A program made the translations under genes and the position numbers. From positions 62,001-126,000 of the forward strand of contig NZ_VNWP01000008.1 of assembly GCF_014224355.1 (NCBI RefSeq): 64,000 nucleotides of DNA, in the 5' to 3' direction. Origin of the DNA: Synechococcus sp. BSA11S. GTDB lineage: Bacteria; Cyanobacteriota; Cyanobacteriia; PCC-6307; Cyanobiaceae. Below are positions 45,070-61,428 of the stretch, in pieces; the stretch's first letter is position 1, and the number at the start of each line of letters is the position of its first letter. The notes beneath the pieces were generated by a model. That model saw only the letters and a program-made list of their open reading frames with translations, was not told the origin of the DNA and made no database searches.

Positions 45070-45179
45070 ACCAGCTGCTCAATGAATGTGCTCGGCGGGC
45101 CGCGGAAGTACCGAGCCGACAGAAGTTCTGGGAGTAGCTGGTAATTCGTAGCGCTCATCACTGGCTTTAGAATCAGGCT

Positions 45180-46075: not shown

Positions 46076-46084
46076 GGATGCTTG

Positions 46085-46412
46085 TGAAAGCCCCACACTC
46101 AAGGGGTAACAGTTTTAGTCAGAAGTCTTGATCTCACCCCCGAGAGCAGCAGCACGATCTGGCGTTCTGGATCGAGGGGTATTACAACCGCGAACGCCGC
46201 CATTCAACGATCGGCTACGTCAGTCCGATCGACTACGAGCAGCGGTTCATCGCGACCTCTACACTTGCTCCTGTGAACCCCTGATCAGTGTCCACGAAAT
46301 CGGGGGAACCCCACAGTGCAGAAGTTGGTGGATAAGGTGCTGGCACTTATGGAGGCCAGTTCACCTGACGGGTGACTATTACGACCAGGCGCTCCTTGCA
46401 GGCAACTCAAAC
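46085..46412. mobile_element. IS3-family insertion sequence remnant
   Basis: This stretch contains the 3' end of an IS3-type transposase gene and its right terminal end. The sequence TGTCCACGAAATCGGGGGAA begins at 46289, directly after the transposase stop, and resembles IS3-family inverted-repeat ends. No left end was found. A 12-bp piece of the 35.8-kb dyad motif (TCAAGGGGTAAC, 46099-46110) lies just before the remnant. From about 46320 to 46412 I see nothing recognisable. Confidence 0.6.
46132..46284 (+). pseudogene. IS3-family transposase OrfB, C-terminal fragment
   Basis: The plus-strand frame ending at TGA 46282-46284 reads FWIEGYYNRERRHSTIGYVS and then PIDYEQRFIA. This is the conserved end of the DDE transposase of IS3-family elements, where NxxRxHSxLGYxSPxxYE is diagnostic. 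Only about 50 codons remain, and no start or upstream catalytic residues are present, so it is a decayed copy marking an old insertion at the boundary between the phage-like element and the envelope-machine island. Confidence 0.8.
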
Positions 46413-47474
46413 TCACTGGAGCTTCGCCCTCAGTGCCGCCCTTACGCGCTCGGCATACTTGTATATGTCACCAACAACATCTATCGGTACTTGCCTAGGC
46501 TCGGTTTCATCGAAAATCTCTACCTTCTTCTGTGAGCCATTAAAGTAAAGCCGTACAACGGCCTTCCAGCTATTCTGGTCAAGCAGTACATTGCAGTAGG
46601 TTTTGGTATCCTTCTCGGAGAGGCGGCTGGGATCAATCTCTGCGGCGCAGATAGCCCGTACAATGTAGAGGCCCTCCAGTTCCTCTGGCGTGGTGACGAT
46701 GCCATCATCTGGTACTTGCTCTTCCTCGACTGGTGGGTGCTCCTCTGCAGTCTTCTCACGGGCCATGGCCTCGCTGAGGCGGTCATTGATCCGATCGTTG
46801 ATGTAGAGCTTAACGGCATCGAGCACGATCGGCTTGAACTTTTCAAGTAGCTGGCCGCTGATCCGTTCAGCGGAATGGACACGCCGCGTCATCTCGCGCA
46901 CCAACCATTCGCTGGGGTCTGTCAACTCGGCACGTATCTGCTCCTTGACGCCACGAAGGTACTTAAGCCTCTCAGCAGCAGAGAGCAGCTTGTCAAGGTC
47001 GAACATCGACTTGGAAAGCTGCTTGATCTGATCGAGCGGGGCACTGCGCAGATCGAACAGGTCGACTTCTGCAAAGGGCTTAGTGTCCATCTTATTCTTA
47101 TCGTCCAAGTCGCTGAAGAACCTGAACAGACGCCCGTTGGTGAGGATTCCAATCCTTGCCCTGGTGGCATGAAAATACCGGGCGAGCTGCCCCATCTCGG
47201 CATCTTTTAGGTCAAGTGTGTAAGGCTTGGCTTCGACCAGGATCTTTGGCTCGCCGTTTTCCAGAACGGCATAGTCCACACGCTCACCCTGCTTGATGCC
47301 TGGCAGGTCTGCGGCGAATTCCGGCTTGACCTCCATCGGGTTGAAGATGTCGTAACCGAGTGCCTGCAGGAATGGGGCGATCAGGGCCATCTTTGTGGCC
47401 TCCTCGTTGGTGAGGCTCGGTCCTGCCTGCTGAGCACGTGCAGCGAGTGTCTGAAGGTGGTCGATCAGATCCAT
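46413..47474 (-). CDS. stand-alone HsdR N-terminal-like nuclease domain protein
   Basis: A 353-residue protein related to the N-terminal endonuclease domain of type I restriction R subunits. The nuclease motifs are ERVDYAVLENGEPKILVEAK, with the D and the E-x-K of a PD-(D/E)xK fold, after the helix EEATKMALIAPFLQALGYDI and the FNPMEVKPEFAAD block. No helicase domain, HsdM or HsdS is nearby. The second half has a helical stretch and an acidic linker (EEHPPVEEEQVPDDG). Start MDLIDHLQTLAARAQ at 47474. Such solo proteins are frequent in defence islands; whether it cuts DNA is not known. Confidence 0.78.
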   Translation of the reverse strand: MDLIDHLQTLAARAQQAGPSLTNEEATKMALIAPFLQALGYDIFNPMEVKPEFAADLPGIKQGERVDYAVLENGEPKILVEAKPYTLDLKDAEMGQLARYFHATRARIGILTNGRLFRFFSDLDDKNKMDTKPFAEVDLFDLRSAPLDQIKQLSKSMFDLDKLLSAAERLKYLRGVKEQIRAELTDPSEWLVREMTRRVHSAERISGQLLEKFKPIVLDAVKLYINDRINDRLSEAMAREKTAEEHPPVEEEQVPDDGIVTTPEELEGLYIVRAICAAEIDPSRLSEKDTKTYCNVLLDQNSWKAVVRLYFNGSQKKVEIFDETEPRQVPIDVVGDIYKYAERVRAALRAKLQ

Positions 47475-47620
47475 TTCCCGGGAGGTATTGCGAAAGAACA
47501 GAAGATTGACCCTCGTAGCTTGCACCTGCATCTCCCTTCACGCAATCTCTTTGGGTCTGGCTTAATCTCCTGTCGCGACGTGGGGCTTTTCATGCCGGGG
47601 CGCTCTTGATCCCTCGCTGC

Positions 47621-48415
47621 TCAGTTCTCCACAGGATCCAGCCCCGCAAGGACGGTGACGCTGCCCTGGCTACTCACCACCTCGACCCCATCGCTCCGCC
47701 GCGAGAAATGCCCGAGGTTCCGATCGGCTTTGCCCTGGCCGTCCTTGCTGAAGATCTCCACCGCGCCATTGTTCCAGAACACGTAAGTGCTGCGGTAGCC
47801 GTCAGCCCAACGCACGTTGTAGACGGTGTGGCCGTTGCTGTTGGTGAGGGCGCTGGCTTCGCAGGGCAGTTCCTTGGCGCTGGCATCGCGGTAGCTACGA
47901 AAGGTACAGGGCTCCCAAACAGATCCATCTCTAGAGCTAGCCGAAGAGGAGGGGCTAACTGTCTCCTGTGGTGGGAGCGGCCGCTCAGCGGCAGACCTCT
48001 CAGGGGGCTGGATCTCAGCGGGTGCACGAGCCTCCGTTTCATTGGTATCGCGGCGGCTCTCGGTCGTTGGTGCAAGATTCCTTTCTGGAGAGGAGGAATC
48101 ACTGGTGTTCGTCACGCTCCTGTTCAGGGAGGCGAGCCCAACCGCCATCACCAAGAACCCCGTCAAAGAGCCCAGCAGAAAGGACCAAGGGACGCCCGGC
48201 CGCGTCAGGGGGGATGCTGGAAAACGACTAGTTGACGCTGAGGGACCAGGAGGAGGGCCTGGAGGCCTGTTGATGCGGCCAGGTGGCCCTTTTGAATCGG
48301 ATGTCTCGAGAGATGGAGATGGTGGCTGGGGCGTGGGTTGGTCGAGCTCATGGAGCAGCTCTTCGGCGCGAGCGACGATGTCCTCGGGATCTCCCCGGCG
48401 CTCGCTCTGGCTCAT
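47621..48415 (-). CDS. single-pass membrane protein of the motor-linked cluster
   Basis: A 264-residue protein. The cytosolic first part begins MSQSERRGDPEDIVARAEEL and is rich in Pro and Ser. One membrane helix follows near residue 80-100 (SFLLGSLTGFLVMAVGLASL). The external part has a Ser/Glu/Pro linker and a C-terminal beta-type domain with WEPCTFRSYRDASAKELPCE and YNVRWADGYRSTYVFWNNGA, whose two cysteines may pair. It resembles nothing I can name. The ATG overlaps the end of the next upstream gene (48412) by 4 bp. It is last in the ZorA/B-like transcript. Confidence 0.65.
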   Translation of the reverse strand: MSQSERRGDPEDIVARAEELLHELDQPTPQPPSPSLETSDSKGPPGRINRPPGPPPGPSASTSRFPASPLTRPGVPWSFLLGSLTGFLVMAVGLASLNRSVTNTSDSSSPERNLAPTTESRRDTNETEARAPAEIQPPERSAAERPLPPQETVSPSSSASSRDGSVWEPCTFRSYRDASAKELPCEASALTNSNGHTVYNVRWADGYRSTYVFWNNGAVEIFSKDGQGKADRNLGHFSRRSDGVEVVSSQGSVTVLAGLDPVEN

Positions 48416-49080
48416 GACTGAGTCTCCGAGATCCTCAACAGGCGGCTGAGCAGATCCTGCTGGACCCGCAGTTGAGAGCGAAGCTCGTTGAGCTCGCTCT
48501 CCTGCCGGGTCATCTGCTGGCTCACCCGACGCTCGAGATTTTCCAGCCGGCGCAGGAGCATCGTCTGCTTCTCCTGTTCGGGGAAAGGACGATGGCGGGG
48601 CACCATCTGGCCTGGACTGAACAGAGTCCACCGTTGACCTCGCACCACCGGCTTGAAGACTGGGAGCGACTGCAACACCAGATCCTGTGGCCCCTCCAGG
48701 CCTTCGGGCCTGGGGAAGATCTGATGGAAGGACTCGCTCTCCAACAACCAAGACGGAGGATCAGCCTGAACCCAGACGACTGCGTCACCACTGGTGAGCT
48801 CGCAGAGTTGGAACACCGAGTCGGTCTCTGCCACGGTGAGGCGAAGGCCGCGCTGAGCAGTGGGGGTGAGCTCTGCCGGAGCCTGGTAGGCCGCCAGAGC
48901 CTGAGGGGAACGGCGCACCAGCCGGGTGAGCAGGAGCTCATCCACTGGCCATGGCCTTCGGGCCGGAGATTCGCCGGGCGGACCCAGCGGTGGAGCGGGC
49001 AGGGCCGTATGGGCCTGAAGCTGCTCGATGTCTCGCTCCAGTTGCAGCAGGCGATCGAGAGGTGAGGGTGTAGCGGCCAT
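48412..49080 (-). CDS. coiled-coil protein, paralogue of the gene at 51494
   Basis: A 222-residue soluble protein. A short N-terminal helix (PLDRLLQLERDIEQLQAH) leads to a domain of about 110 residues with VDELLLTRLVRRSPQALAAY and LQSLPVFKPVVRGQRWTLFS, then a C-terminal coiled coil (LLRRLENLERRVSQQM onward). The domain and the coiled-coil start (LENLERRV versus LANLERRI) match the plus-strand gene at 51494-52207, so the two are paralogues. The gene is one base from the MotB-like gene stop and overlaps the next gene by 4 bp. Confidence 0.7.
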   Translation of the reverse strand: MAATPSPLDRLLQLERDIEQLQAHTALPAPPLGPPGESPARRPWPVDELLLTRLVRRSPQALAAYQAPAELTPTAQRGLRLTVAETDSVFQLCELTSGDAVVWVQADPPSWLLESESFHQIFPRPEGLEGPQDLVLQSLPVFKPVVRGQRWTLFSPGQMVPRHRPFPEQEKQTMLLRRLENLERRVSQQMTRQESELNELRSQLRVQQDLLSRLLRISETQS

Positions 49081-49081
49081 C

Positions 49082-49687
49082 TCAACGGTCCTCCTGACGC
49101 GTGAAGCGAAGCTCGATGCGACGCCGCTCAGCTCGATCCTTCGTGTCGGCGGGAGCATAACGACCATCCGCAGCGATCAGGCTACCGGCGGAATAGGGGC
49201 GGATGATCAACCCCTGCTTGCCATTGGGATCAAGCCTGGCCCTGAGCTCATGGGCAACCGCTAGGGCGCGGAGCAGCCCTAAATCCGTGTTCGAGCCTGC
49301 ATTAAAGCCGCTGAGAGCGGAGGAGCTACTGGCCTTCGGCATCAGCAGATCGAGGTTGCTCATCCCTGGCGAGGGCTGACCATCGGTGTGGCCTATGACT
49401 TCTACGCTGTCGATTCGGTACTTCTTGATGATCTCGCGGATTTCCGGCAAACGGCGATCCAGGGCTCTTCTGAAGTCGGGACCGAGCACATAGCTGCCTG
49501 TGGTGAAGCGAAAGGACTCCCGCTCCGTCAGGGGGACGAGGGGTGGTTTTTCATTACTGGCCCGAGCCAGGGCAGCGACGGCCACGGTCAGCAGAAGGAT
49601 TAGAAGGCTGTTGCTGAGCAGATCGGTGTAACCGATCCAATAATTCGTGTCGCTGTCTCGGGAGCGCCGGCTAGAGCGAGCCATCAT
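49082..49687 (-). CDS. MotB/OmpA-like stator protein (ZorB-like)
   Basis: A 201-residue protein with an N-terminal basic tail, one membrane helix (NYWIGYTDLLSNSLLILLLT) and a periplasmic OmpA-like peptidoglycan-binding domain (IDSVEVIGHTDGQPSPG, later RRRIELRF). The Asp in GYTDLL sits exactly where MotB carries its proton-binding aspartate (AYADFM), so ion flow is plausible. This layout matches MotB and ZorB of Zorya defence. The ATG at 49687 overlaps the MotA-like gene's stop, the usual arrangement of stator pairs. No flagellar genes are near. Confidence 0.82.
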   Translation of the reverse strand: MMARSSRRSRDSDTNYWIGYTDLLSNSLLILLLTVAVAALARASNEKPPLVPLTERESFRFTTGSYVLGPDFRRALDRRLPEIREIIKKYRIDSVEVIGHTDGQPSPGMSNLDLLMPKASSSSALSGFNAGSNTDLGLLRALAVAHELRARLDPNGKQGLIIRPYSAGSLIAADGRYAPADTKDRAERRRIELRFTRQEDR

Positions 49688-51318
49688 CAACGGCCTCTAT
49701 CAGCATCTCGGCCATCGAGCCGCGCAAGGGATGCCAGGTTGAGAAGGCGGGACTCCAGATCCCCGAGTAGTTGGACAAGCCCCTGGCTTAGGTTCTGGGC
49801 GTAAAGGGTCGGCTGATCAAGTTGAGCCAGCGCGGATCGCTGGGTGTCGATCGCAGCACCAAGATCCTGCTGCAACTGGTTAGTCAGTTGCTCGATGGTC
49901 TCGCGGGCATGCTTGCTGCGCTCGGCCAGCAAGGCGTCATCCTCGAGCTTGGCGTTCTGCACAGTGGTCACGAAGGCGCTGGTGAGGTCATCGAGACGCA
50001 CCACATTGCGGTTCCAGTTGCTGAGCGCGGTCTCAAGGGCAGAGGCGAACACCTGGCAGCTTTCGGCAACGGAGGCATCGGCGGCTAGGCGAGCGCGGAC
50101 GGATTCGGCAACCTCCAGCGCAAGTTTGCGATCGCGCATGACCTCCAGGCGGGCTTCTCGGAGCTGCTTACTGGATTCAACAGCAGACTGGTTGCTCTGG
50201 TCCAGAGACATGCTCGCCTGCTGCAGGGACTGGATCTCCTTCTGAATCTGCTGGCTGGCCAGTCGGCAGGACTGCAGTTCTGTCTCCGCGGTCTTGGCGA
50301 GCAGCTTCCACTCCGCCTGGGTGGACATCAGTGAATCTCGCACATCGACAAGGCGAGCACTGAGGCCATCTGAGCTGGCTGTGATCTGTTCCTGTGACTC
50401 CTGCAGGCTCTGCACCGATTGCTGCAGGGTCGTGGCGAAGTCGGTGTCGCGAAAGGCCTGGGCGGCCTGCACGAAATCCTGCCCGCTCTCGTTGAAGGCG
50501 TTGGCCACGCTTCCCAGCTGTCGAACGGCAATCTGGGCCTGGGAGGTCAGGCTGGTATTCACGTCGAAGATCTCCTTAAGCTTGGCGGAAAAGGCATCCT
50601 TCATGGCCGACTCGACCGCGTTATAGACGGCCAGGGGCAGGTCGCCAGCTGACTTATTTAAGTCCTGAATCGACTTGCGCAGGGGAGCCATCACCTTGCT
50701 GTCGAGCTGCTGGGGAAGCACGGTCTCCAGCCAGCTGCTCAGCAGTGCTTCGCAGCGCTCCAGGCAGTTCCTGGTGCCGACGATCTGCGTCCAGATCAGC
50801 ACCAGCAAACTCAGAAACAGACCCAGCAGGCTCGTCTGAAATGCAGCCCCCATGGGTGCAACTATGCCTGAGAGGGCTGTCATTGTTTCTTCCGTGCTGG
50901 CATTCTTCGCCAGGGCTCCAGCAATCTCGCTCAGGCCGATAGTCAGGCCTGCAAAGGTACCCAGAAGGCCCAGGGAGATCAGGATGCCCGGGGCCTGCCG
51001 CAGCCAGCTCTGGGCCGACGCAGCTGTGATCTGACGGAAGACGAAGGGCAGGGAGATGGTCTCGATCTCGCCGGCGCTGAATTCGGCCGCATCGACCTGA
51101 TCGACATGAGACAGCAACGCGATGTAACGGTTCTTGATTCGCTCAAGGCGATCACCAAGCTCCGGAGCTTCCGAGTCGTCCTGGTGGAGCTGGGCCAGCC
51201 TGGCCGCCAGCGGCATGGTCAGACGCGCCAGCTGGCCGGAAAGGCCAATCGCCACGAATGCCACCGCCACCATCAAAAGCAGGATCACGACTTTCGAGAG
51301 GTTGATAAGAACATCCAT
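49687..51318 (-). CDS. MotA/ExbB-like protein with long coiled-coil tail (ZorA-like)
   Basis: A 543-residue membrane protein. Helix 1 is near residues 5-28 (LSKVVILLLMVAVAFVAIGL). The MotA/TolQ/ExbB core has PGILISLGLLGTFAGLTIGL and GAAFQTSLLGLFLSLLVLIW. The remaining 320 residues are a long coiled-coil-rich cytosolic tail (from APLRKSIQDLNKSAGD on). ZorA of Zorya systems has the same layout: a proton-channel domain and a long helical tail. The ATG at 51318 faces the plus-strand gene at 51494 across 175 bp. It pairs with the MotB-like protein. Confidence 0.82.
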   Translation of the reverse strand: MDVLINLSKVVILLLMVAVAFVAIGLSGQLARLTMPLAARLAQLHQDDSEAPELGDRLERIKNRYIALLSHVDQVDAAEFSAGEIETISLPFVFRQITAASAQSWLRQAPGILISLGLLGTFAGLTIGLSEIAGALAKNASTEETMTALSGIVAPMGAAFQTSLLGLFLSLLVLIWTQIVGTRNCLERCEALLSSWLETVLPQQLDSKVMAPLRKSIQDLNKSAGDLPLAVYNAVESAMKDAFSAKLKEIFDVNTSLTSQAQIAVRQLGSVANAFNESGQDFVQAAQAFRDTDFATTLQQSVQSLQESQEQITASSDGLSARLVDVRDSLMSTQAEWKLLAKTAETELQSCRLASQQIQKEIQSLQQASMSLDQSNQSAVESSKQLREARLEVMRDRKLALEVAESVRARLAADASVAESCQVFASALETALSNWNRNVVRLDDLTSAFVTTVQNAKLEDDALLAERSKHARETIEQLTNQLQQDLGAAIDTQRSALAQLDQPTLYAQNLSQGLVQLLGDLESRLLNLASLARLDGRDADRGR

Positions 51319-51493
51319 CAGGCTGAAGGGGGCGACAAAATCTGGTCGTGTTGTGTGACTGATATAGTAGATGTTTGCCCTCCACCATGCCTAAATCGAT
51401 TGGTCAGCGCTGGCTGCGCTGACGCCTCAAGCAACGCCACAGGCTTTTGTTAGGATGAGTTACCAAGGGGGGGGCTCGGTAAGGACGCCGACC
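51319..51493. promoter_or_regulatory. divergent intergenic region inside the motor cluster
   Basis: This 175-bp stretch separates the leftward MotA-like gene from the rightward coiled-coil gene, so it must carry two promoters. TATAGT at 51363-51368 is a possible plus-strand -10 box, without a clear -35. AAGGA at 51480-51484 is a Shine-Dalgarno-like sequence before the ATG at 51494 and supports that start. Confidence 0.35.
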
Positions 51494-52207
51494 ATGGAAG
51501 AAAGCAAGATTGTCGAATCTCTCAAGTTCCTGCTGAGCAGCGTCAAAAAGCTCAGTGACAGCTTCATTACCACCGAGAAGAAGCTCACACGCAGTTTCGA
51601 CAACGTCGCTGCTGATGTGGTTGATCTCCAAGAGCGCATTGAGTGGCTGGAGAAACAACTGGTCGATCTCAGTGATGGCGCCCTGGTATCTTCTCGCACG
51701 CAGATGACACCAGGGTTGCCCGTGCGCCCTGGTAGTGAAGAGCGAGTCGTGCCGGCTATCAATCTGCCCCTGGAGGACATTCTTGATGTGTATGCGAGCA
51801 CGCCGGCTCTGCTGGAACCCTTCAGTCGTCCCTGCAGCGTCAGTGCACGTACCCTCAGCGGTGAGATCGAGGAGGTGGAGCTGGAGATGTTTGTGCAGGG
51901 CACCACCTGGGCGCTGGAAGCCCTGGATGGGGTTTGGCTGCTGGTGCCCCGGCCGGGAACACTGGAGCGCAGAACGCAACTGGAATCCCTGGAGCGGCTC
52001 TACGCCATCGAAGGGGTAAAGGAATTGCCAGCCTTGCTGCAGCTCATCGAACCGGCCAGTGCCATGGTGGTGGTGCATGGGCGGCGCTGGCAGCTCAGGC
52101 AGAAGGGGCTCTTGAGCGTGAACCCCGATCCCCTCAGGGTCAGCACCGCTGAGAGATTGGCCAACCTGGAACGTCGCATCGCCAGGCTGGAAGGGACAAC
52201 CGGCTGA
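51494..52207 (+). CDS. coiled-coil protein on the opposite strand of the cluster
   Basis: A 237-residue soluble protein: an N-terminal coiled coil (ESLKFLLSSVKKLSDSFITT, through VVDLQERIEWLEKQLVDL), a 120-residue domain (LEDILDVYASTPALLEPFSR; LQLIEPASAMVVVHGRRWQL) and a short C-terminal coiled coil (ERLANLERRIARLE). The last two parts are alike in sequence and order to the product of the gene at 48412-49080. It is the only plus-strand gene in the cluster and stops one base from the convergent membrane-protein gene, so it is transcribed from its own promoter. ATG 51494 has a good ribosome-binding site. Confidence 0.72.
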   Translation: MEESKIVESLKFLLSSVKKLSDSFITTEKKLTRSFDNVAADVVDLQERIEWLEKQLVDLSDGALVSSRTQMTPGLPVRPGSEERVVPAINLPLEDILDVYASTPALLEPFSRPCSVSARTLSGEIEEVELEMFVQGTTWALEALDGVWLLVPRPGTLERRTQLESLERLYAIEGVKELPALLQLIEPASAMVVVHGRRWQLRQKGLLSVNPDPLRVSTAERLANLERRIARLEGTTG

Positions 52208-52208
52208 A

Positions 52209-53234
52209 TCAGGACGGTACCAGCACAACCCCTTTGTTGATGACCTCCCAAACCCCCTCGCGGATCTCCTGAACTTCGGCCGGTTCCCTCAGTTCAGCTG
52301 AGGACGTTGAGGCGCTCTCCTCGTACTCAAATATCCCCTTCTGAGGTTTGTTCGTCGTGAAACCGCAGAGGGTCTGAGCAGTGGGGCAGATCCAGTTCTT
52401 GCTTCCACGCTCAATCAGAAGATAGCTCCCACCCCCAGGGACATTGTGCAACTGGGTGTTGAAGATCGATGTGCCACGCGTCAAGGCATCCTCGGATTCC
52501 TGTGTGATATTGAGTTCTGCCTTGGTCATACTCCTGATGCGACTTCTGTCGTTGCTCAGCACGGCTGAGGTATAAGCAGCAGTCACCTCATCGGCATGGG
52601 AGACCGGCGGGGGTGGTACCGGAAGGAGAGAATCGATATGTGATGACTGAGATTCAGTAGGTGACGGAGTAGAAGGGAATGTGCTTTGGACTAGATAATG
52701 TTGCCTGAGCAACTGTAGTTGTTTGGCCAGATTGGCAATTCTGTCTTGTTGCTCTCCGAGTTCTCTCTTGTAGGTTTCTTCTTGGAGAGAGATCTTCAGC
52801 GCCACTTCACCTGCCTTCTGCTCGTGCCAGGTCATCAGCTTCTTGAGAGCAACCAAACCGTCAGGGGAGTGCATCATATTTCGTACGTTTTCATCAAGCT
52901 TTTTCAACCGCCGTCTTGCGTCTACTCGACTTGGACGAAGGACATACCAGTCCAAAGCCAAAGCACTCATTCCAGACAGCAGGCCAAGTCCTGCGATGAC
53001 TTTCCAGGTGATGTCCCAGGCATCAACTGAGTGTCGGACCGCAGGGGGCTGAACGGCAGGCAGTGGCGGTTGGTTCTCACTCTGCTCCGGGAAGGGTGTA
53101 TCAGGATCAGCGGGGGGGGGAGAGTTCTCATTCTGCGCCAGGGCAGGAAGTGCAAGGGCTATCAACATCGCCGTGGCTCCAGCCAGAATCAGCCGCAGAG
53201 GCGAGGGGGGAACTTGGAGCTTCAAGGGCTGCAT
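52209..53234 (-). CDS. exported or membrane-anchored coiled-coil protein
   Basis: A 341-residue protein. The N-terminus is a signal-peptide-like segment (LRLILAGATAMLIALALPAL, then AQNEN), followed by a Pro-rich stretch and a membrane helix (ITWKVIAGLGLLSGMSALAL). Past this is a coiled coil (KRELGEQQDRIANLAKQLQL) and a C-terminal domain with NVPGGGSYLLIERGSKNWIC. With cleavage, the protein would have one helix and a large domain on one side of the membrane. The C-terminal domain resembles in general layout the protein at 51494, but not clearly in sequence. Function unknown. Confidence 0.65.
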   Translation of the reverse strand: MQPLKLQVPPSPLRLILAGATAMLIALALPALAQNENSPPPADPDTPFPEQSENQPPLPAVQPPAVRHSVDAWDITWKVIAGLGLLSGMSALALDWYVLRPSRVDARRRLKKLDENVRNMMHSPDGLVALKKLMTWHEQKAGEVALKISLQEETYKRELGEQQDRIANLAKQLQLLRQHYLVQSTFPSTPSPTESQSSHIDSLLPVPPPPVSHADEVTAAYTSAVLSNDRSRIRSMTKAELNITQESEDALTRGTSIFNTQLHNVPGGGSYLLIERGSKNWICPTAQTLCGFTTNKPQKGIFEYEESASTSSAELREPAEVQEIREGVWEVINKGVVLVPS

Positions 53235-53265
53235 GGTGCAAGGGGAAATGCCAGATGGGGGATGT

Positions 53266-56200
53266 TCAGAAACGCTCTGCCCACTGCCGGGCAAGGGTGT
53301 TGATCAGGGCGCGCAGTCCGATTACGAAACCAGGTTCCGGCTCAAGATCGCTGATCTCCTGGTTGAGCTTCTCGAGGCAGATGGCGCGCGCCTGGATCTC
53401 CACCTCATCCCAGAGCTTGTCGAGGGAGATGAGCGTGCGGATGGGCAGGAGGCTGTTGATTCGTGAGGCTTTAAGAGCATCATCGTAGTTGCTCACAAAC
53501 CGACGCAATTCTGTGAGACTACCCAGCTCGTAGCTTTCAACAGACGTGGGTTTATCATCCTTGTCTTCATCAGTCTTGGCTTCATCCGGGAAGTCAATGC
53601 GATCCAGTGGTCCAAAGACCTTGCCATTGATAGCCAGCTCCTCACCAGTGATCATGGGGTCTTTTCTGGGGTCAAAGTCACCCGTCAGGTTGACTCCTTT
53701 GCTGATCAGGCCGCAAGCCGTCTCATCTTTGAAGGCATTGGAGAGTGTTGTGTCGGCAGGTCCCTGGCGACTATCGGGAAATCCTGAGCTCATGCGTTGC
53801 AGTTCCTCCATCAAGGTGTCGGCATCGCAGCCTGTGGAGAAGGCCCCACTCTCATCCAGCCAGTTGATGAAACGGGCGCCATTGCCCCCCAGGTAGACCG
53901 GAACTGGAGCCTGTCTTTGCAGGCGGCCCTCCCTCGCCAGGGCTTTGAGAACCAATCCGAGGTAGTGGTATATCCCACCAAAACTCACTGCCATCAGGCT
54001 CACGAAGGCCAACAGCTGCTTGTCCTGCTCGGCCCGATGAATGGGCATGCGATCCCGCAGCAGCTCATCGGACGCGTAGCGCAGACAATTGTCCAGCCAG
54101 CTGTTGAAATTTGGATCCTGGCGAAGCTTGGCATCGTCGTCAGTGATGTCTCCGGTGATTCCGGGGGCAAACAGAAAGCGGATGAAGGACGGCTTTGATT
54201 GAAGAATGCTTGTGCATATGTTGCGTCCGGCGAATGGGATGGAGACCTGGTGCAGCAGAGCATTCTCCTGCCAGATGCTGATGTCGGTGGTACCGCCGCC
54301 CACATCCAGGCAAGCGGTGTGAACCATCTGACGAGCGAGATAGTTGCCGAAATAACTGGCGAAGGCCACGGCCTCGGTTTGCAGGCCTCCTTCGCCACCA
54401 TCCTCCAACAGTTGATGCCTCAGCCCAGTCAGGGTTGTCAGGTCCTGGCAGAGGTCTCCCCACAGGCGCCGGTAGTTGCGCGCTTCATTCGGAGAAAAAG
54501 CGCTGGGGTACGACACCGACCAGTTCACTTCCGCCGCGCCACCTGTGGCGGCATTGCTGCTAATCAGCAGAGCCAGTTCCTTAAGGAAGGGCCTCTGGTA
54601 GTTCGGCTGGCGCCACTTGAATCCCGTGTGCACGCCAGCTCCCCGTAGCGCCAAGGTATTGGTGCTGGGCCATTGAACCCGGGCCTGGTGGTAGAGCTCG
54701 GGAACCTTCCCTCTGACCTCCTGCCAGCCGTGGGTGTTCAGGGCGGTTGAGGTCGGGGGATTGGAATCCTTGGGAAGCAGTGTCTCCGGGATGAAGAACT
54801 TGTAGAGCAGGTTCAGCTGGGTCTCTTTCTGAGCCAGCATCAGGGGAATGACGCGAGTCTCCAGGGGTTTGCGGGCCGGTCCTGAGCCATCGTTGATGAA
54901 GAAGTTGGTGAAGGAGGTGCCGAAGTCGATCCCCACGCGCCAGGCCGCTGATGCGTTTCCCGGCGGGGGAGGAGGATTGACCGGGATCAGACCGCATACC
55001 TGGCTCCTCTCAATCAACTTGATCAGGTCGGGGAAGCGCTGGCAGGTGAAGTACTTGACGTTTTCCTGCGCTTCGCGGCCCGTGTTGAGCTCATAGTCGC
55101 TGAAGCCATCAACGGTAAGGCCCGTGCTGCTGTCCTCGCAGAAGATATAGAAGCTCTTCCAGCTCATGTCGGGGATGTTCGGCCAGAGCATGATTACTGG
55201 CAGATCCTGATCGATTAGGTTCTGCTCCTTGATCGGGAAGGAACGGCTGATCGGGTAAAGATCTCGTTGGCCCTTGAGTGGCAGCATCAGCGTCACGTTG
55301 ATCGCCATGCCTCCGCCGGTCTGCACCACCCTCAGGGTGCAACTCCTGGAAAGTTCGACGCTGCTGAACAGCTCGCGCATTCGCTCCTGAAGTGGCAGCA
55401 GTGGCGTGACGGCACTGCCGTTCACCAGCGGCTGTCCTTCCAGGTGACTCGGCAACCAAGAATTGACAAGCGCCGATTCTCCAGGCAGCAGGTAGAGCTC
55501 CGGCAGGAAGATGTCATCGGGCGTGAGGACTTCGATCTTGCCGCCATAGAGCCGCAGGAGCTGGTCTTTGGCGAATCCCACCGATTCAAGTGTCGCCGCT
55601 TCATAAAGCGTGATTTCGTTGGCAGGAAGCCCCAGACGATTGGGCATCTCCGGATCGAGCAGGATCACCGGGCGACTTTGGGGGGGAGACTGCGGCAGGG
55701 GGCGTTCCCGGCGATCCCCCAGTGCCAGCTCGGCGTTGCTAGGGCTGGCCCCCCCTTTGGCGGCCCGCTTCAGTAGTGACACTGCCGTGGGGCGCGGCGG
55801 CAGGCTGGCGATCGGGTTGTCGGAGAGAATGGGGTCGAAGACCCCGTTGGTGCTGAGCCGCTGCATAAAGCCGCTCAACACCTCGGCCATCTGGGAGACC
55901 GTCGTCTGACTGTGGAGGTCAGGGGCTGTGAGAATGCCCTGGCTCACATGGCTGAGCCAACCAGCCAGCGCCTGACGGTGCTGGGCTCCCAGGAAGCTGG
56001 TGGGGACGCGGAAGCGGCCTTCAGCTGTCCACTTCATACCCGGAATCGAGGCGGACAGATGGACCGCCGGACAGAGCACCGTGGTCGGTGAAGTGAAGCC
56101 GATCACCACCCCGTTCACCCTGAGAACGTGCAGGATCTCCCAGGGGTTGCTGCCATCTGACAGCGCGAAGAGCGCTTTATCGCCGTTGGGTGTTGATCCG

Positions 56201-56592
56201 AACAGGCTGCGGGCGAAGGGGCCCACAGCTTCGTCCTGCCTCCCTATGTGCTCCGCCAGAGCTACCCGCTCCGCCTCCAGCTTGAGGCCATACATCTCCC
56301 ACAGGGCCACGGTGGCGAAGCAGCCGAAGAGTTCCTCAAGCAGGGCTGCGCGGGTTGGATAGCGGGGATTGAGCACCGCCTGCTCGAACTGCAGCGCCCG
56401 CGACCAGGGGGAGGGCAGGGAATTCACTCGGCTGCTCGCCACCTCGTAAACGAGGCTGTTGGCAATGGTGCCAAGGGTCTGCTGGTCGCGGCCCTGCCAC
56501 TCACCCGAGCGTGAGCCGCCCGCCAAGGGCGGGTCGGTTTTGGGGAACCAGGGGAACTGAAGGATGTTTTCTGAGGTGTTGTCAGGAGCCAT
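53266..56592 (-). CDS. large actin/Hsp70-fold ATPase
   Basis: A 1108-residue protein. The first 550 residues have no recognised fold (MAPDNTSENILQFPWFPKTD onward). Then comes an actin-type ATPase: phosphate-1 WRVGIDFGTSFTNFFIND near residue 552, phosphate-2 ACLDVGGGTTDISIW near 760, and the adenosine motif VYLGGNGARFINWL near 897. The C-terminus is charged and helical. Hsp70-like and SrfB-like virulence-associated proteins share this layout, but I cannot assign it. No membrane segment is visible, so it should act in the cytosol, with the tubulin-like GTPase encoded 24 bp upstream in the same transcript. Confidence 0.8.
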   Translation of the reverse strand: MAPDNTSENILQFPWFPKTDPPLAGGSRSGEWQGRDQQTLGTIANSLVYEVASSRVNSLPSPWSRALQFEQAVLNPRYPTRAALLEELFGCFATVALWEMYGLKLEAERVALAEHIGRQDEAVGPFARSLFGSTPNGDKALFALSDGSNPWEILHVLRVNGVVIGFTSPTTVLCPAVHLSASIPGMKWTAEGRFRVPTSFLGAQHRQALAGWLSHVSQGILTAPDLHSQTTVSQMAEVLSGFMQRLSTNGVFDPILSDNPIASLPPRPTAVSLLKRAAKGGASPSNAELALGDRRERPLPQSPPQSRPVILLDPEMPNRLGLPANEITLYEAATLESVGFAKDQLLRLYGGKIEVLTPDDIFLPELYLLPGESALVNSWLPSHLEGQPLVNGSAVTPLLPLQERMRELFSSVELSRSCTLRVVQTGGGMAINVTLMLPLKGQRDLYPISRSFPIKEQNLIDQDLPVIMLWPNIPDMSWKSFYIFCEDSSTGLTVDGFSDYELNTGREAQENVKYFTCQRFPDLIKLIERSQVCGLIPVNPPPPPGNASAAWRVGIDFGTSFTNFFINDGSGPARKPLETRVIPLMLAQKETQLNLLYKFFIPETLLPKDSNPPTSTALNTHGWQEVRGKVPELYHQARVQWPSTNTLALRGAGVHTGFKWRQPNYQRPFLKELALLISSNAATGGAAEVNWSVSYPSAFSPNEARNYRRLWGDLCQDLTTLTGLRHQLLEDGGEGGLQTEAVAFASYFGNYLARQMVHTACLDVGGGTTDISIWQENALLHQVSIPFAGRNICTSILQSKPSFIRFLFAPGITGDITDDDAKLRQDPNFNSWLDNCLRYASDELLRDRMPIHRAEQDKQLLAFVSLMAVSFGGIYHYLGLVLKALAREGRLQRQAPVPVYLGGNGARFINWLDESGAFSTGCDADTLMEELQRMSSGFPDSRQGPADTTLSNAFKDETACGLISKGVNLTGDFDPRKDPMITGEELAINGKVFGPLDRIDFPDEAKTDEDKDDKPTSVESYELGSLTELRRFVSNYDDALKASRINSLLPIRTLISLDKLWDEVEIQARAICLEKLNQEISDLEPEPGFVIGLRALINTLARQWAERF

Positions 56593-56616
56593 GGCGGCGG
56601 TTGTGGTGGTGGGGAG

Positions 56617-58122
56617 TCAGAAGCTGAGAGACCAGAGGGTGTCGGCCAGGCCTGCCACACCGTTATGGGGAATCTCCTTGGGAGACAGCTTGTCCATACG
56701 GACCTTGATGTCCTCGGCCATGTCCTGACGCTCCTCCTTCGTTGGTCGCGCTGAACCTCTTACGACTCGGCTCAGGGCGTTCTCATAGCTGGGATTGCGC
56801 TGAAGCAGGCTGGGGGTGAAAAGCTCCTGGTTGAAGCCCTCGCCCGTGTTGCTGCTGAACTGGTTGAGCCATTGCAGCAGGGTTTCGCTGTAAGCGTCGA
56901 TCGCCGACTTGAGGTTCAGTTCCTCAGTGCTACGGATGCTGGGGCGGCCTCCCTGGGTGCCCGTGGCCTTGCCGCTCGGTTGAAAGAACTGACGCGCCCA
57001 GGGTGCCCCACTGAGGAAAGCGCCCATTGACAGCTTCTGGGCCGTATCAAGTTCGAGACTGAAGTTGTTCAGCCAGGCCACCGCGAAACGGGCGCCGCGT
57101 GAGAGCCCCTGGCCGACGGCCTCATTGTCGGGAATGTCGTTCCAGCTGATCTGGTTGGGTGCGGCACGGCTGAGCACATAGGCATAGGCGTCCTCAGCTA
57201 CCGGCTGCAGGCTGTGGCGCAACCCCAGCGCCGCAAGCAACTCCACCACATGGGCGGCATTGCTCTGGGAGCGGCCACCGATGCTGAAGCCGTAGCGGGC
57301 CTTGATGTCGCTGCCGATCAGGTACACATGATCGAAGCAGGTGGTGCCGCTGCTGCGTAGATACTGCAGGGCGGCATCGGTGTTGAGCTGGAAGTTGCGG
57401 GCTTCGGCATGGACGCCGGTGCCCTCCTGGCCCTGGCCCTCGAAATCGAAGTAGGGCAGCAGCAGCGAGGCGTTGACGTGGACGCTGGTAAGGCCGAGCT
57501 CCCCGAGCCAGGACTTGAGCATCTGCCCGAGTGTGGGCACTCCCGAGGCTCCCGTTCCTCCGAAGACGCTGCCGAAGAGGTGGATGGTCGGAGCTTCCCC
57601 AGCACCGGCTGCAGCCTGGATATCACTGAGCATCTGTTGCCACTGCCCGGTCTGAGCTTCGCTGGCGAGGCTGACGCGGCTCATCACCGCCGAGCCGATC
57701 GGCGGTCGTCCACGGAAGCCCACGTCCAGTTCAGCGCTCTGTTCCTCCGGTGGGAACAAGCAGTCGAACAGCGCCGCAAGGCCACTGGCCTGGGTGCGGA
57801 GCACCGCCTTGGGGAACACCTGATCGAGGCTGATGGCCCCCGACGCCGTGCTCAGGGGGCTCCAAGTGCCGTAGTTGCGCAGCTCTCCGCGGGCGAAGCT
57901 CTCAGCCTTGTTTCCCAACAGGGCCCGCATCTTGTCGTAGCGGACGATGGCCGTCTGGGCGCGGGCCAGGAGTGTGCTCTGTTGATCGGGTTCGACCAGG
58001 AAGGTGCCTAGGCGGAGTGGCTGGCCGGTACCGGACTGCAGGAGACCGCAGGCATGGAGATGGCAGAGGGCTTCCAGACACTTGGCCCCGCTGCCTCCCA
58101 CACCGATGGCGAACAGGCTCAT
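56617..58122 (-). CDS. tubulin/FtsZ-like GTPase
   Basis: A 501-residue member of the bacterial tubulin-like family (Tubulin_2 group). The N-terminus LFAIGVGGSGAKCLEALCHL is the nucleotide-binding glycine loop, and the tubulin signature appears as HLFGSVFGGTGASGVPTLGQ near residue 186. A downstream YLIGSDIKARYGFSIGGRSQ fits the region before the central helix. Unlike FtsZ it is long and has a divergent C-terminal half. It probably polymerises or switches with GTP. It follows a four-helix membrane protein gene by one base and precedes the actin-fold ATPase gene. Confidence 0.8.
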   Translation of the reverse strand: MSLFAIGVGGSGAKCLEALCHLHACGLLQSGTGQPLRLGTFLVEPDQQSTLLARAQTAIVRYDKMRALLGNKAESFARGELRNYGTWSPLSTASGAISLDQVFPKAVLRTQASGLAALFDCLFPPEEQSAELDVGFRGRPPIGSAVMSRVSLASEAQTGQWQQMLSDIQAAAGAGEAPTIHLFGSVFGGTGASGVPTLGQMLKSWLGELGLTSVHVNASLLLPYFDFEGQGQEGTGVHAEARNFQLNTDAALQYLRSSGTTCFDHVYLIGSDIKARYGFSIGGRSQSNAAHVVELLAALGLRHSLQPVAEDAYAYVLSRAAPNQISWNDIPDNEAVGQGLSRGARFAVAWLNNFSLELDTAQKLSMGAFLSGAPWARQFFQPSGKATGTQGGRPSIRSTEELNLKSAIDAYSETLLQWLNQFSSNTGEGFNQELFTPSLLQRNPSYENALSRVVRGSARPTKEERQDMAEDIKVRMDKLSPKEIPHNGVAGLADTLWSLSF

Positions 58123-58123
58123 C

Positions 58124-58651
58124 TCAGCGCCCTCCCAGCAGACGGACGGCACCCGGCACCACGAACCTGTAGGTGCGGGGCGAGGCCAGCAGGGTGGGTA
58201 GCCAGAACAGGATCAGCACGTTGAATACCACGAAGACCATCACCAACAACCAGCCTCCTGGCGGCAAGGGGTAATAGTTCACCCCGCTCCCCTCGACTGG
58301 TGATGTCACCTGGATCTGCCAGATGAGCACAGTGAATAACAGCTGATAGAACCACCCCAGCAAGACCAGCAGGATAGTGGAGATCCACCATAGCGGCTGC
58401 ATTCTCCTTACTTCAGCGCCATTGCGGGGCTTCCCGTTCCAGGTGATGAAGATCCAGATGAACAGGGCGGTGATGCAGCTGAACCAGAGCACGGTGAAGG
58501 ATGGACTGCTGACCTGGGGCAGGAACACATTTAGGTCCTGACCCAGCAGAGCAGAGAAGACGTTGAGGAAGAGCAAGTTCTGGATTATGAAAACCCAGAG
58601 GATGCCAAAAGCAAAGGTGACCCCAAGCCAGATGTACTGAGTGGATCGCAT
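58124..58651 (-). CDS. four-helix membrane protein
   Basis: A 175-residue integral membrane protein with four hydrophobic segments: WLGVTFAFGILWVFIIQNLL, FTVLWFSCITALFIWIFITW, WWISTILLVLLGWFYQLLFT and GGWLLVMVFVVFNVLILFWL. The loops are short, with a basic stretch (KPRNGAEVRRMQ) after the second helix. No transporter or enzyme motif is visible. It ends one base before the tubulin-like gene and starts 12 bp after the vWA lipoprotein gene, so it may be the membrane anchor for the cytosolic ATPase and GTPase. Confidence 0.7.
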   Translation of the reverse strand: MRSTQYIWLGVTFAFGILWVFIIQNLLFLNVFSALLGQDLNVFLPQVSSPSFTVLWFSCITALFIWIFITWNGKPRNGAEVRRMQPLWWISTILLVLLGWFYQLLFTVLIWQIQVTSPVEGSGVNYYPLPPGGWLLVMVFVVFNVLILFWLPTLLASPRTYRFVVPGAVRLLGGR

Positions 58652-58663
58652 CGAGGAGAGGAT

Positions 58664-59950
58664 TCAGCTGTGTTGGTAGGCGACACATAGCGCAGCGGCA
58701 GGGGCGCTTGGGGTATCCGCCGCGATCTGCTGGCCCAGGGTTGTCATGAGCAGCAACAGACCTTCGGTCTGCTCCTTAGCGCCGGAGCGTTTGGGGTCGG
58801 TGCGGTCCCACTCAAGCCACCATTGATCCGGCAGGCTGCCGCGGGGAATTGTGGCCCGCAGCAGGCCGGAGGGTGCCGAACTGGTGATTTCGAGTTCTAG
58901 TCGTACGTTCGTGCCGGCCACACTCATGCTCCTGAGGCGAATCCCCCCGGGGTCGGTGGACCCACTCGGGGTGAGGGGGATGCGCTCGAGCCGCACCAGG
59001 CCTAGGTCAGGCCGGCTTGTGCCCCCAGTCCAGGGAGTGATCGTGGCCATAACGAGTCCGGTGGCCCCCGGATTCAGCCGAACGAACCCGTAGTCAGTGT
59101 TGTTGCTTGGCGAGTAGGTGATGTTCTCCAGGCGCACTGGGATCCCCGAGGCGCCCTTACTAGTGGGGGTTGCTGCCGCCGACTTGACCATCAGAGGTTG
59201 GGGCCCTGACTTGCCGCCAAGGAACGAGATTTCCTTGGTCGTCGTGCCCTTCTGGGCCATGGTCTTCTGGATCTCCGAAAGCAAGGATCGCACCTGTTCG
59301 GGCTTGCCTGTGGCGAGGAGGTAGAGGGGGCGGTTGAGTTTTCCGGTGTGGATGTTGACCCCCTGCGCATCGAAGACCTGCCCCTCGAAGGGAAGCTTCA
59401 GGGCCAGAACCCCTGCAGATGCGCCCTTGGCAAGATCCTTGCGGATGGCACCAATGAGGCTCGAGATGTCGCTCTGGTTCACCTCCAGGTCGCTCACCAG
59501 AAGTCTCAGGGGCGTAGCACCCTCTGCAGGCTGAACATCCCAAAGGGTCTGGAGGCTGGAGGCTACCGCCGGGTAGCCGCCGCAGCCCTTGAAGAAGCAG
59601 GGATCGGTGGCCTGCGTCACACGATCGGCACCGAGGTCCTGGGCCGAGCCAGCTCCGATGCGGAAGACCCGTGGGGAAAGCCCCTGGGTCCTCGCGGAGA
59701 GATTCACGGCTTGGAGCAGGTTGCGCCAGCTGGTGGCATCGGCCGCGGTGGAATGACCGAGCATCGAGCCACTCCCATCGATGCCGATCAATACCTCGGA
59801 GGATGTCCTGAGGTTGCCCTTGGAGGCCTCAACGTTCTTCCCTGGTTCAGCTATACCGCGGTTGACACAGTCAGGTAATTCGGGAGTGCAGCCCAGCAAC
59901 ATCGCCAATGAAAGCAGTGCCAGGGTGACTGGATATGGTGTGACTCTCAT
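58664..59950 (-). CDS. von Willebrand factor A lipoprotein
   Basis: A 428-residue exported lipoprotein. The signal peptide ends in the lipobox LLGC with the lipidated cysteine at residue 21. A vWA domain follows with the MIDAS motif VLIGIDGSGSMLGHS (D-x-S-x-S at 58-62) and the later LRLLVSDLEVNQSD. After it comes a beta-rich domain (PVRLENITYSPSNNTDYGFV onward). vWA domains bind protein partners through a metal. lspA at 9.2 kb would process its precursor. It overlaps the end of the nuclease gene by 4 bp (ATGA). Confidence 0.8.
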   Translation of the reverse strand: MRVTPYPVTLALLSLAMLLGCTPELPDCVNRGIAEPGKNVEASKGNLRTSSEVLIGIDGSGSMLGHSTAADATSWRNLLQAVNLSARTQGLSPRVFRIGAGSAQDLGADRVTQATDPCFFKGCGGYPAVASSLQTLWDVQPAEGATPLRLLVSDLEVNQSDISSLIGAIRKDLAKGASAGVLALKLPFEGQVFDAQGVNIHTGKLNRPLYLLATGKPEQVRSLLSEIQKTMAQKGTTTKEISFLGGKSGPQPLMVKSAAATPTSKGASGIPVRLENITYSPSNNTDYGFVRLNPGATGLVMATITPWTGGTSRPDLGLVRLERIPLTPSGSTDPGGIRLRSMSVAGTNVRLELEITSSAPSGLLRATIPRGSLPDQWWLEWDRTDPKRSGAKEQTEGLLLLMTTLGQQIAADTPSAPAAALCVAYQHS

Positions 59951-60843
59951 GTGACCACGCCCTCGGGATCAGGTAGACGCAGTTCGTATGTCCCCGAACT
60001 CCACGGCCACAACCTAGCCCCCACTGAGACAGACTCCATTCTGGGATGGAACGGCTCGACTTGGTCGGGTTGGGAAATGGAGCAAACGTCTAAAGGATGC
60101 ACAATGCCAAAAGTCGAAACATTTGAACGCCAGCTTCTCTGTGATAGCAGAGATCGTCGCCCTCGAGAGATCCCCACCTGTCTAGATCCTCTTCCCTCAA
60201 AAGCAAGACTTTCGCACGCTTCCCCATCTCCATTTCCGTCGAGATAGTTATGGCCCTGTCGCAACAGCTCCTGAGCACGGGCATATGAGCCTATCTCACT
60301 GCAGCGGTAGCGGCGACCACCAGGGGTAGTGCTATTAGGCATCGTGACGCCTCGTCGGCTGCGGCGGAAGTCCCAAGGTCTGGTGATTCCCCCGGGCACC
60401 TGCCACACCCCATGTCGGCGACGGGAGGCTCGGTCCTCAGCTTCGAGGTAGGCCTTGGCGTCGCACTTTCCCAGGTACTTCCGGTAGGCGAAGGCCTGAC
60501 CATTTTCCACGAGAGCCCTGTTGATGTTCACCTCTCCGATCACCTCCGCCACAGTGCGGCCGTAGCGATCGACCGCTTGCGGCTTGAGTGTCACAGTAGA
60601 CCCAACCCGAAGGCGTTTCTGCAAGTAGCTGCGGGCACTTGCGCCAAAGGGGGCCTGGGCCATCTCAGGTGCATCGATGCAGCCCAGGCGAATTGTCATA
60701 GTCTGCTGGCCCTGCTGCACCCGGATGGTGTCCCCGTCACCGATGGAGATGACTCTGGCTTTGTTACCAGAAGAGTACGGAGCGCATCCGATGGTGGTCA
60801 TCGAGGCAATCAATGTAAATCCAAAGATCGTGGGGAGTCGCAT
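59947..60843 (-). CDS. thermonuclease-family lipoprotein with excalibur domain
   Basis: A 298-residue exported nuclease. A signal peptide with lipobox-like TTIGC (Cys20) precedes a staphylococcal nuclease domain: ARVISIGDGDTIRV, the catalytic IRLGCIDAPEMAQAPFG with Arg and Glu, and DRYGRTVAEV with the second Arg. A calcium-binding excalibur motif follows (YRCSEIGSYARAQELL, then YLDGNGDGEACESL). The last 85 residues look unlike any domain and may result from a frameshift that removed the natural stop after the excalibur motif. First gene of the leftward cluster, so its promoter lies in 60844-60960. Confidence 0.82.
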   Translation of the reverse strand: MRLPTIFGFTLIASMTTIGCAPYSSGNKARVISIGDGDTIRVQQGQQTMTIRLGCIDAPEMAQAPFGASARSYLQKRLRVGSTVTLKPQAVDRYGRTVAEVIGEVNINRALVENGQAFAYRKYLGKCDAKAYLEAEDRASRRRHGVWQVPGGITRPWDFRRSRRGVTMPNSTTPGGRRYRCSEIGSYARAQELLRQGHNYLDGNGDGEACESLAFEGRGSRQVGISRGRRSLLSQRSWRSNVSTFGIVHPLDVCSISQPDQVEPFHPRMESVSVGARLWPWSSGTYELRLPDPEGVVT

Positions 60844-60968
60844 TCACCCAGTGTCTCCCTCCCATAGAGAATCTGCCATCCCCCTTTCGGGGGAGCCTGG
60901 GGGTAGTACTAGGTCATGGGGAAGTGGGAGTCACAGCGGGGAATAGCGTGCATTGAGCACCGAAGTGG
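60844..60968. promoter_or_regulatory. upstream region of the envelope-machine cluster
   Basis: No gene is seen. A perfect hairpin TCCCCCTTTCGGGGGA lies at 60879-60894, 36 bp before the nuclease gene start. It may be an operator or an mRNA leader structure for the leftward cluster, or a left-over of the neighbouring transposon remnant. I could not assign promoter boxes. Confidence 0.35.
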
Positions 60969-61253
60969 TTGCGGCGGTGTACATGTCTCCCCTCATCAGA
61001 GCAGGCCCGGCCGCTGATCGAGAAGTGGCTGGAGGAGGGCACGGCCAATGCGGCCGAGATCCTCAGGCGCCTGATCCGGCTGGCCCCGGAGAAGTACCAC
61101 GAGGGGCAGCTGCGCTCGATGGAGCGGCGCGTCAGGGAATGGCGCGCTGCCCGCGCCGAGCAGCTGTTGGAGGGGATGCGAGTCGCCGGAAAGGGGGTGC
61201 CCACAGGGAAGAGGCCGATTCCTGTCGCGACACCAATTGGCGGTAACACTTAA
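60969..61253 (+). pseudogene. transposase remnant (IS21/Mu-type integrase, fragment)
   Basis: The plus frame contains ARPLIEKWLEEGTANAAEIL, then YHEGQLRSMERRVREWRAAR. The pattern of a QLRxxxRRVREWR helix is typical of the DNA-binding region of IS21/IS481-like integrase-type transposases, just before the catalytic core. No DDE residues follow; the frame stops at 61253 near TTGGCGGTAACACTTAATGA, which resembles an IS terminal end. I read it as a decayed insertion. A small functional DNA-binding protein is a weaker alternative. Confidence 0.6.
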
Positions 61254-61428
61254 TGATGCAAAGCGACCGGTCAACTTCATTGTCGGCGGACATGAAGCGG
61301 TCCAGAACCTCAAGCAGCTCCGCCAGCACCCGCCTAATTGCAGGCCCCTGCTCGGGGTGGTGAACGGCGGTGAAGGCGCGAGCGGTCAAGCGTGCCTCGA
61401 TCTCCTGCAGAGCATTGGCGGTGTCCAT
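61132..61428 (-). CDS. hypothetical protein, probably altered by an insertion
   Basis: A 98-residue frame starting MDTANALQEIEARLTARAFT. The first 60 residues are a sensible helical protein (PAIRRVLAELLEVLDRFMSA). The last 35 run into the transposon remnant on the other strand and are Arg/Pro-rich, so the original C-terminus was probably replaced by the insertion. No domain is recognised. It is a likely broken gene; expression is doubtful. Confidence 0.35.
   Translation of the reverse strand: MDTANALQEIEARLTARAFTAVHHPEQGPAIRRVLAELLEVLDRFMSADNEVDRSLCIIKCYRQLVSRQESASSLWAPPFRRLASPPTAARRGQRAIP

Follow-up and report, generated by a model that had tools for sequence, protein, structure and literature searches.

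A conserved gene cluster of tubulin-fold, actin-fold and envelope proteins with an optional ZorAB-like motor, carried by an integrative element in Synechococcus

In 2010, Makarova and Koonin described vWA-tubulin-OmpA operons built around FtsZl1, for which they proposed a role in membrane remodelling, the main text remaining silent on MotA and on any actin partner (PMC2875224). A decade later, Kaur et al. 2020 placed vWA/tubulin/HSP70 NTPase systems among the conflict systems; in their survey the tubulin and HSP70 themes are non-overlapping within GAP1-N2 systems, and MotA is not mentioned in the main text (PMC7159879). The third point of reference is Zorya, whose function requires ion flow, peptidoglycan binding and the ZorA tail (PMC11890865). 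Here, we analyze a gene cluster at positions 46413-60843 of a 64,000-nucleotide window (the whole stretch studied) from Synechococcus sp. BSA11S (contig NZ_VNWP01000008.1, positions 62,001 to 126,000), a cyanobacterial genome of 2.88 Mb with relatives among Synechococcus and allied strains. The cluster encodes a vWA-like lipoprotein, a small membrane protein (TM175), a short tubulin-like protein (tub) and a large actin-like protein, accompanied by coiled-coil adaptors and a MotA/MotB pair.

These genes form a conserved unit and not a chance grouping. Across 38 distinct loci, several exceptions being contig ends or insertions, TM175 directly precedes tub in 36; in 36, too, tub is followed within 1.5 kb by a same-strand actin-like gene, and a vWA-like gene lies within 4 kb of tub in 33. 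Pairwise distances of tub and of the actin-like protein correlate over 35 loci (r=0.963, where the highest of 2000 permutations gave 0.214), which fits the expectation for co-inheritance, shared species history contributing. The tubulin-like gene occurs in 11 of 151 genomes of the same family, where the nine loci examined share the order vWA-like, TM175, tub, actin; across the phylum, 27 of 386 cyanobacterial genomes carry the actin-like gene. Further loci lie in Acidobacteria (L037, L038) and Clostridia (L039, L040), and the IMG/VR contigs L150-L154, of Bacteroidota-like or unknown host, carry the cluster as well. The original prediction had made its case depend on co-occurrence of these genes elsewhere, and the genome-neighbourhood survey answers clearly in its favor, with the core order kept across phyla. 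Here tubulin- and actin-fold proteins share an operon outside cell division, as a near-obligatory pair.

Of the two, tub of the window matches the Pfam model Tubulin_2 at 1.1e-5, just under the cut-off, but 34 of 35 homologues hit this model; ten homologues match the Pfam Tubulin/FtsZ GTPase model, and the T4 glycine loop GGTGA.G is invariant in 35 sequences. The fold was assigned by structure comparison after a sequence-profile search of the PDB with tub had given no match. All 50 Foldseek matches listed against the PDB for the AlphaFold2 (AF2) model (predicted local distance difference test, pLDDT, 85; predicted template-modelling score, pTM, 0.89) are tubulin, CetZ, FtsZ or complexes of them, the best at E 6e-5 and prob 1.00, with TM scores of 0.2-0.28. 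These matches at low TM values indicate that the nucleotide domain of tub is conserved and that the remainder has diverged. The tubulin-like protein with a GGTGASG loop had been read correctly from the sequence.

The same holds for the 1108-residue actin/Hsp70-fold protein with three actin motifs. Among its homologues (n=38), Pfam finds FtsA in 28 and MreB in 16; in the window protein the motifs read DFGTSFTN for phosphate-1, DVGGGTTD for phosphate-2 and GGNG for adenosine. The AF2 model (pLDDT 85) is matched by the bacterial actin filament BeeR (2e-8), MreB and DnaK, and the first ~550 residues lie ahead of the actin motifs. Searches for the protein in INPHARED phages, and with its profile in IMG/VR, gave no match. 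Two cyanobacterial paralogues bear an N-terminal caspase domain (L094:7878-11177 and L095:8785-12648), the latter accompanied by a vWA-like gene and a MotB fragment. Two candidate relationships were dropped: a TerD-like reading by eye of two tandem ~192-residue paralogues after the actin-like gene (L151:15682-16863), one of which was tested against Pfam with no match, and a link to SrfABC, for which the Pfam SrfB match was weak (0.38).

The vWA-like lipoprotein stands on different ground. What holds of its original description is the DGSGSM motif, resembling a metal ion-dependent adhesion site (MIDAS), and the lipobox, both conserved in the family. The vWA domain itself does not follow: Pfam gives none in the window protein and no VWA match in 29 family members, and a profile comparison with vWA aligns the first strand only. 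A mixed set that included vWA proteins of FtsZl1 operons yielded one VWA_2 match, a weak one (0.07). A vWA fold of this lipoprotein is thus weakly supported.

The MotA/ExbB-like and MotB/OmpA-like pair is ZorAB-like, as had been proposed. The MotB-like protein matches the PADLOC model ZorB1 at 8.9e-9, and its family profile matches solved MotB/ZorB chains at 6.4e-11 to 7e-9, with 4.3e-9 among the values; the transmembrane Asp, D23, aligns with the ZorB Asp and does not vary among 12 sequences drawn from two phyla. Its OmpA domain recurs in 11 other aligned sequences, and some loci have no such gene. For the MotA-like protein, the corresponding values are 4.3e-12 (PADLOC ZorA1) and 2.7e-8 (solved ZorA chains), while a Pfam MotA_ExbB search of the window genome gave no match, the model being too insensitive for this MotA clade. 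Because Zorya depends on the three features cited above (PMC11890865), an active ion channel in the window cluster is plausible by analogy.

Where the motor occurs, its position varies. In the Acidobacteria loci L037 and L038, the actin-like gene is followed by one or two adaptor genes and then MotA-MotB (a protein of 601/752 residues with three transmembrane segments, and a ZorB-like protein), and in the near-identical Bacteroidota-like contigs L153/L154 the pair comes directly after actin (ZorA2 6e-5, ZorB1 1.9e-7). Among the relatives of the window, most loci have the motor, and L014 and L016 lack it. In genome G124, the core (L014) and MotA-MotB-cc251b (L138) sit on different contigs; encoding of the motor module in trans is therefore possible. 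No MotB homologue was found in the genome of L016 or in the two Clostridia, the core-bearing genomes listed without one being G048, G500 and G501, and six further near-complete core-bearing genomes gave no strong MotB match (G201, G228, G233, G267, G296, G343). MotAB is therefore a facultative module, and the quartet with its adaptor proteins is the constant core. The original picture of a motor-linked envelope machine survives in part: a conserved unit does join actin-fold, tubulin-fold and envelope proteins across phyla and often includes a ZorAB-like motor, but the link to the motor is not constant.

These observations bear on two alternatives. In a new Zorya subtype, the actin and tubulin proteins would replace ZorC/D/E as effectors of ZorAB. 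The match of the pair to solved structures speaks for this, but near-complete genomes carry the core without a strong MotB homologue, homologous MotAB pairs also accompany canonical FtsZl1, and in a PADLOC scan of ten cluster proteins, with TM175 and TM376 outside it, none matched ZorC, D, E, F or G, which leaves the subtype improbable. The cluster had been described as no known Zorya type, with ZorC, ZorD and ZorE missing, and it is indeed not Zorya by two tested features: the missing C/D/E/F/G partner and the loss of ZorAB from some systems. The second alternative looks to the Agl-Glt focal adhesion of Myxococcus, which combines a MotAB-type motor, an MreB-type actin and the outer-membrane vWA lipoprotein CglB and, to our knowledge, has no tubulin. 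By analogy, the cluster might encode a machine for surface adhesion, gliding or force transmission, with three part types alike (ion motor, actin fold and vWA-like lipoprotein). Several core-bearing genomes lack the motor, however, including Clostridia with a core and no MotAB, no Glt-type trans-envelope proteins were recognised, and the distribution is patchy and mobile, so we give this analogy little credence.

Canonical FtsZl1 offers the closer comparison. In cyanobacteria this protein (~1080-1130 residues, Tubulin_2 E ~1e-110) is encoded at loci separate from tub, often in the same genome, and hhalign aligns tub with it over the N-terminal 228 columns (97%, E 9e-11). The operon vWA - FtsZl1 - MotA - MotB was found at L129:4470-11354, L132:4668-11334 and L134:5807-15145, its vWA protein giving a clear vWA profile match (92.6%). 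In 292 cyanobacterial genomes there are 49 strong MotB matches, 31 of them within 12 kb of canonical FtsZl1 and 4 beside the actin-like gene; a MotB homologue lies within 12 kb at 31 of the 63 canonical FtsZl1 loci. The OmpA-type partner noted in 2010 is, at least in cyanobacteria, a MotB-type protein with a MotA neighbor. A MotB-type stator with MotA gives the orphan FtsZl1 family of 2010 a testable energy source, and at least two tubulin-based systems appear to use the Zorya-type motor as an exchangeable module.

The same data lend some weight to a machine for membrane remodelling or envelope transport, in which a tubulin/actin scaffold at the inner membrane would shape membrane or move cargo, while MotAB and the lipoprotein would link peptidoglycan and outer membrane. 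Its component types are those of vWA-FtsZl1-OmpA operons, about half of the canonical cyanobacterial loci have MotB nearby, tub is homologous to FtsZl1 over the N-terminal domain, and the AF2 models match the filament formers BeeR, MreB and CetZ. The patchy, mobile-element-borne distribution and the caspase-fused paralogues nevertheless fit conflict better than housekeeping, and filaments are predicted only; we regard this role as unlikely, though worth keeping in view. Tentatively, a ZorAB-type motor might also act together with the GTPase of tubulin type and the ATPase of actin type as one trans-envelope device, with canonical FtsZl1 as a widespread sister form, a reading that we consider possible but less likely than not. 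If true, it would define a class of bacterial machine, for immunity or for the envelope, built from motor plus cytoskeleton.

The genomic setting is that of a mobile gene set found in several phyla: Cyanobacteria, Acidobacteria, Clostridia and Bacteroidota-like contigs. Five congeners are collinear with the window up to 33384 at 81-86% identity, and every alignment ends at this position; the congeners run on through the interrupted, conserved gene (UPF0102/YraN-like by inspection) into an ABC transporter. GC falls from 0.66-0.71 to 0.56-0.64. The interrupted region continues on contig C12 of the window genome, so the insert measures at least 43 kb, and the cluster is cargo of this integrative element inserted at 33384. 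No Rfam RNA and no tRNA was found at the insertion site. A recombinase-like open reading frame with a YARVSS motif starts at the junction, a motif-level reading that a PDB search did not confirm. Relatives of the cluster reside on plasmids of Picosynechococcus PCC 7003, 73109 and 8807, of NIES-970 and of Gloeothece PCC 7822; as Picosynechococcus sp. PCC 7003 is culturable, genetic and phage tests are practical. Residence on an integrative element and plasmids, together with tubulin- and actin-fold proteins, could also suit a TubZ/ParM-like system for segregation and maintenance of the element. No TubR/ParR-like DNA-binding partner was identified, though, the partners conserved best are membrane proteins or lipoproteins, MotAB has no obvious partitioning role, and chromosomal copies exist too, all of which makes segregation very improbable.

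We propose, at about an even chance, an envelope-associated, nucleotide-gated sensor/effector system, optionally coupled to a motor, carried as mobile-element cargo and probably conflict-related, whether anti-phage or anti-element. Its core would comprise the vWA-like lipoprotein, TM175, the short tubulin-superfamily GTPase, the large actin/Hsp70-fold ATPase and one to several coiled-coil adaptors. The lipoprotein and TM175 may sense envelope disturbance, such as entry of phage or foreign DNA, and TM175 would relay the signal to the GTPase-ATPase pair, which would turn over GTP and ATP, switch or assemble on the cytoplasmic face, possibly as filaments, and trigger a response via a further effector or membrane disturbance. 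Where present, a peptidoglycan-anchored ZorAB-like pentamer:dimer channel could contribute, via its long cytoplasmic tail, signalling or a force driven by ions.

The core order across phyla, the tub/actin correlation and the invariant Asp of the ZorAB-like channel support this proposal, as does the classing of vWA/tubulin/HSP70 systems as conflict systems (Kaur et al. 2020, PMC7159879). A conflict role is favored by the patchy distribution, the mobile element, the plasmids, the caspase-fused paralogues and the island neighbors (Nmad2, Nmad3, HSDR_N and a RapA/SNF2-type helicase). Several points weigh against the proposal. No PADLOC model matches the actin, tubulin, vWA-like or adaptor proteins, and a PADLOC run on 110 flanking proteins gave few scattered matches and had no control, and is not used as defence-island evidence. 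No effector enzyme is constant, since neither SNase nor HSDR_N is conserved, and MotAB is common beside canonical FtsZl1, where it could serve a housekeeping function. Polymerisation and NTPase activity are predictions from sequences and models, and the regions of tub outside the nucleotide-binding domain may be too diverged to polymerise.

All genes named by the original prediction are present where it had placed them (Table 1), on the minus strand except cc250a, with operon-like spacing: vWA/SNase and MotA/MotB overlap by 4 bases, tub and actin are 24 bases apart, and TM361 overlaps the end of actin. The more likely start of tub is the ATG at 58122. TM376 is named for a 376-residue open reading frame that is open to 48751; its start is probably at ~48415, and a close homologue has 272 residues. 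Of the accessory genes, the nuclease lipoprotein is confirmed by its SNase match but does not belong to the core, occurring in three of nine loci of near relatives, none of which has the HSDR_N protein. The two coiled-coil paralogues, cc250a and cc251b, are homologous as claimed, and their C-terminal domain extends to a third protein, the 361-residue TM361.

Table 1. Features of the cluster and of the element that carries it (window positions)
Feature	Position	Strand	Basis or remark
vWA-like lipoprotein, MIDAS motif DGSGSM (core)	58664..59950	-	motif and lipobox; vWA fold weakly supported
TM175, small membrane protein, 4-5 hydrophobic segments (core)	58124..58651	-	directly upstream of tub
tub, short tubulin/FtsZ-superfamily protein, GGTGASG (core)	56617..58152	-	Tubulin_2; AF2 and Foldseek; hhalign
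Actin/Hsp70-fold ATPase (predicted), 1108 residues (core)	53266..56592	-	DFGTSFTN, DVGGGTTD, GGNG
TM361, one transmembrane segment	52209..53294	-	C-terminal domain common to cc250a
cc250a, coiled coil and shared C-terminal domain	51455..52207	+	opposite strand in relatives too
MotA/ZorA-like ion-channel subunit (optional module)	49687..51318	-	long cytoplasmic helical tail
MotB/ZorB-like subunit	49082..49690	-	transmembrane Asp23; OmpA-type peptidoglycan-binding motif
cc251b, paralogue of cc250a	48412..49167	-	comes after MotB
TM376, protein with one transmembrane segment	47621..48415	-	close relatives only
SNase and Excalibur lipoprotein (accessory)	59947..60843	-	SNase 1.3e-17
HSDR_N (type I/IIG restriction-like) protein (accessory)	46413..47531	-	
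Integrative element, window part	33384..64000		left junction at 33384; collinearity with 5 congeners ends

Other genes of the island were noted in passing. Adjacent genes for the nucleotide-modification-associated domains Nmad3 and Nmad2 lie at 61813-63770 (E 1.6e-73 and 3e-51). Beyond the window end, at L182:9167-14483 (67167-72483), a P-loop GTPase-like reading frame of 857 residues, recognised by inspection, adjoins a RapA/SNF2-like helicase of 909 residues, and the island also has a RecB/helicase-like reading frame (by inspection). The region 36449-46075 has phage-like genes, among them an integrase-like reading frame at 40675-41286, a Phage_Mu_F-like protein at 45308-46075 (E 1e-4) and large reading frames resembling primase and terminase by inspection.

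A literature search covering few subscription journals and no preprints found no description of a system with actin, tubulin and MotAB. The original prediction had asked whether the whole set matches a system already described; the gene set is without a match, whereas the kinds of system it draws on are known (PMC2875224, PMC7159879). With Zorya the cluster shares a ZorAB-like channel with a long cytoplasmic tail, a channel Asp and a peptidoglycan-binding MotB domain, but its motor is optional, its partners are actin- and tubulin-fold proteins, and ZorC, D, E, F and G were not found among the ten cluster proteins scanned with PADLOC. With Agl-Glt it has in common a MotAB-type motor, an actin-fold protein and a vWA-like lipoprotein, and it differs in its tubulin, its facultative motor and the lack of identified Glt homologues. 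In the GTPase-centric DO-GTPase/GAP1-N2 systems, too, tubulin and Hsp70-fold components lie close to the membrane beside a vWA one (in the window cluster vWA-like), and the predicted role is again conflict, but the window cluster has actin/Hsp70 and tubulin together; no DO-GTPase or GAP1 turned up in Pfam, NCBIfam and PADLOC scans of the cluster, in which no specific profile was run.

Of the kinds already known, the FtsZl1-vWA-OmpA system comes closest, together with the tubulin/HSP70 conflict systems of Kaur et al. 2020. Both the FtsZl1 system and the window cluster comprise tubulin-superfamily and OmpA-domain proteins, further membrane proteins and a vWA-type partner, which in the window cluster is the MIDAS-like lipoprotein with its weakly supported vWA fold, and both include cyanobacteria; tub has the Tubulin_2/FtsZl1-type GTPase domain, the linked OmpA-domain protein is MotB-like (some loci being without it), and the MotA and MotB of the cluster have homologues in the cyanobacterial FtsZl1 operon. 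In contrast, tub has ~500 residues, without the long coiled-coil and helical C-terminal parts of FtsZl1 (1080-1130 residues), the vWA-like lipoprotein belongs to a different family, the core includes a large actin-fold ATPase as a partner, and no protein kinase or GTPase is linked in the cluster. Tubulin length and actin partner set the cluster apart from a plain FtsZl1 system. It would work as a hybrid of the Zorya, FtsZl1 and tubulin/HSP70 conflict kinds, and looks like a defence-type relative of the barely studied family of 2010.

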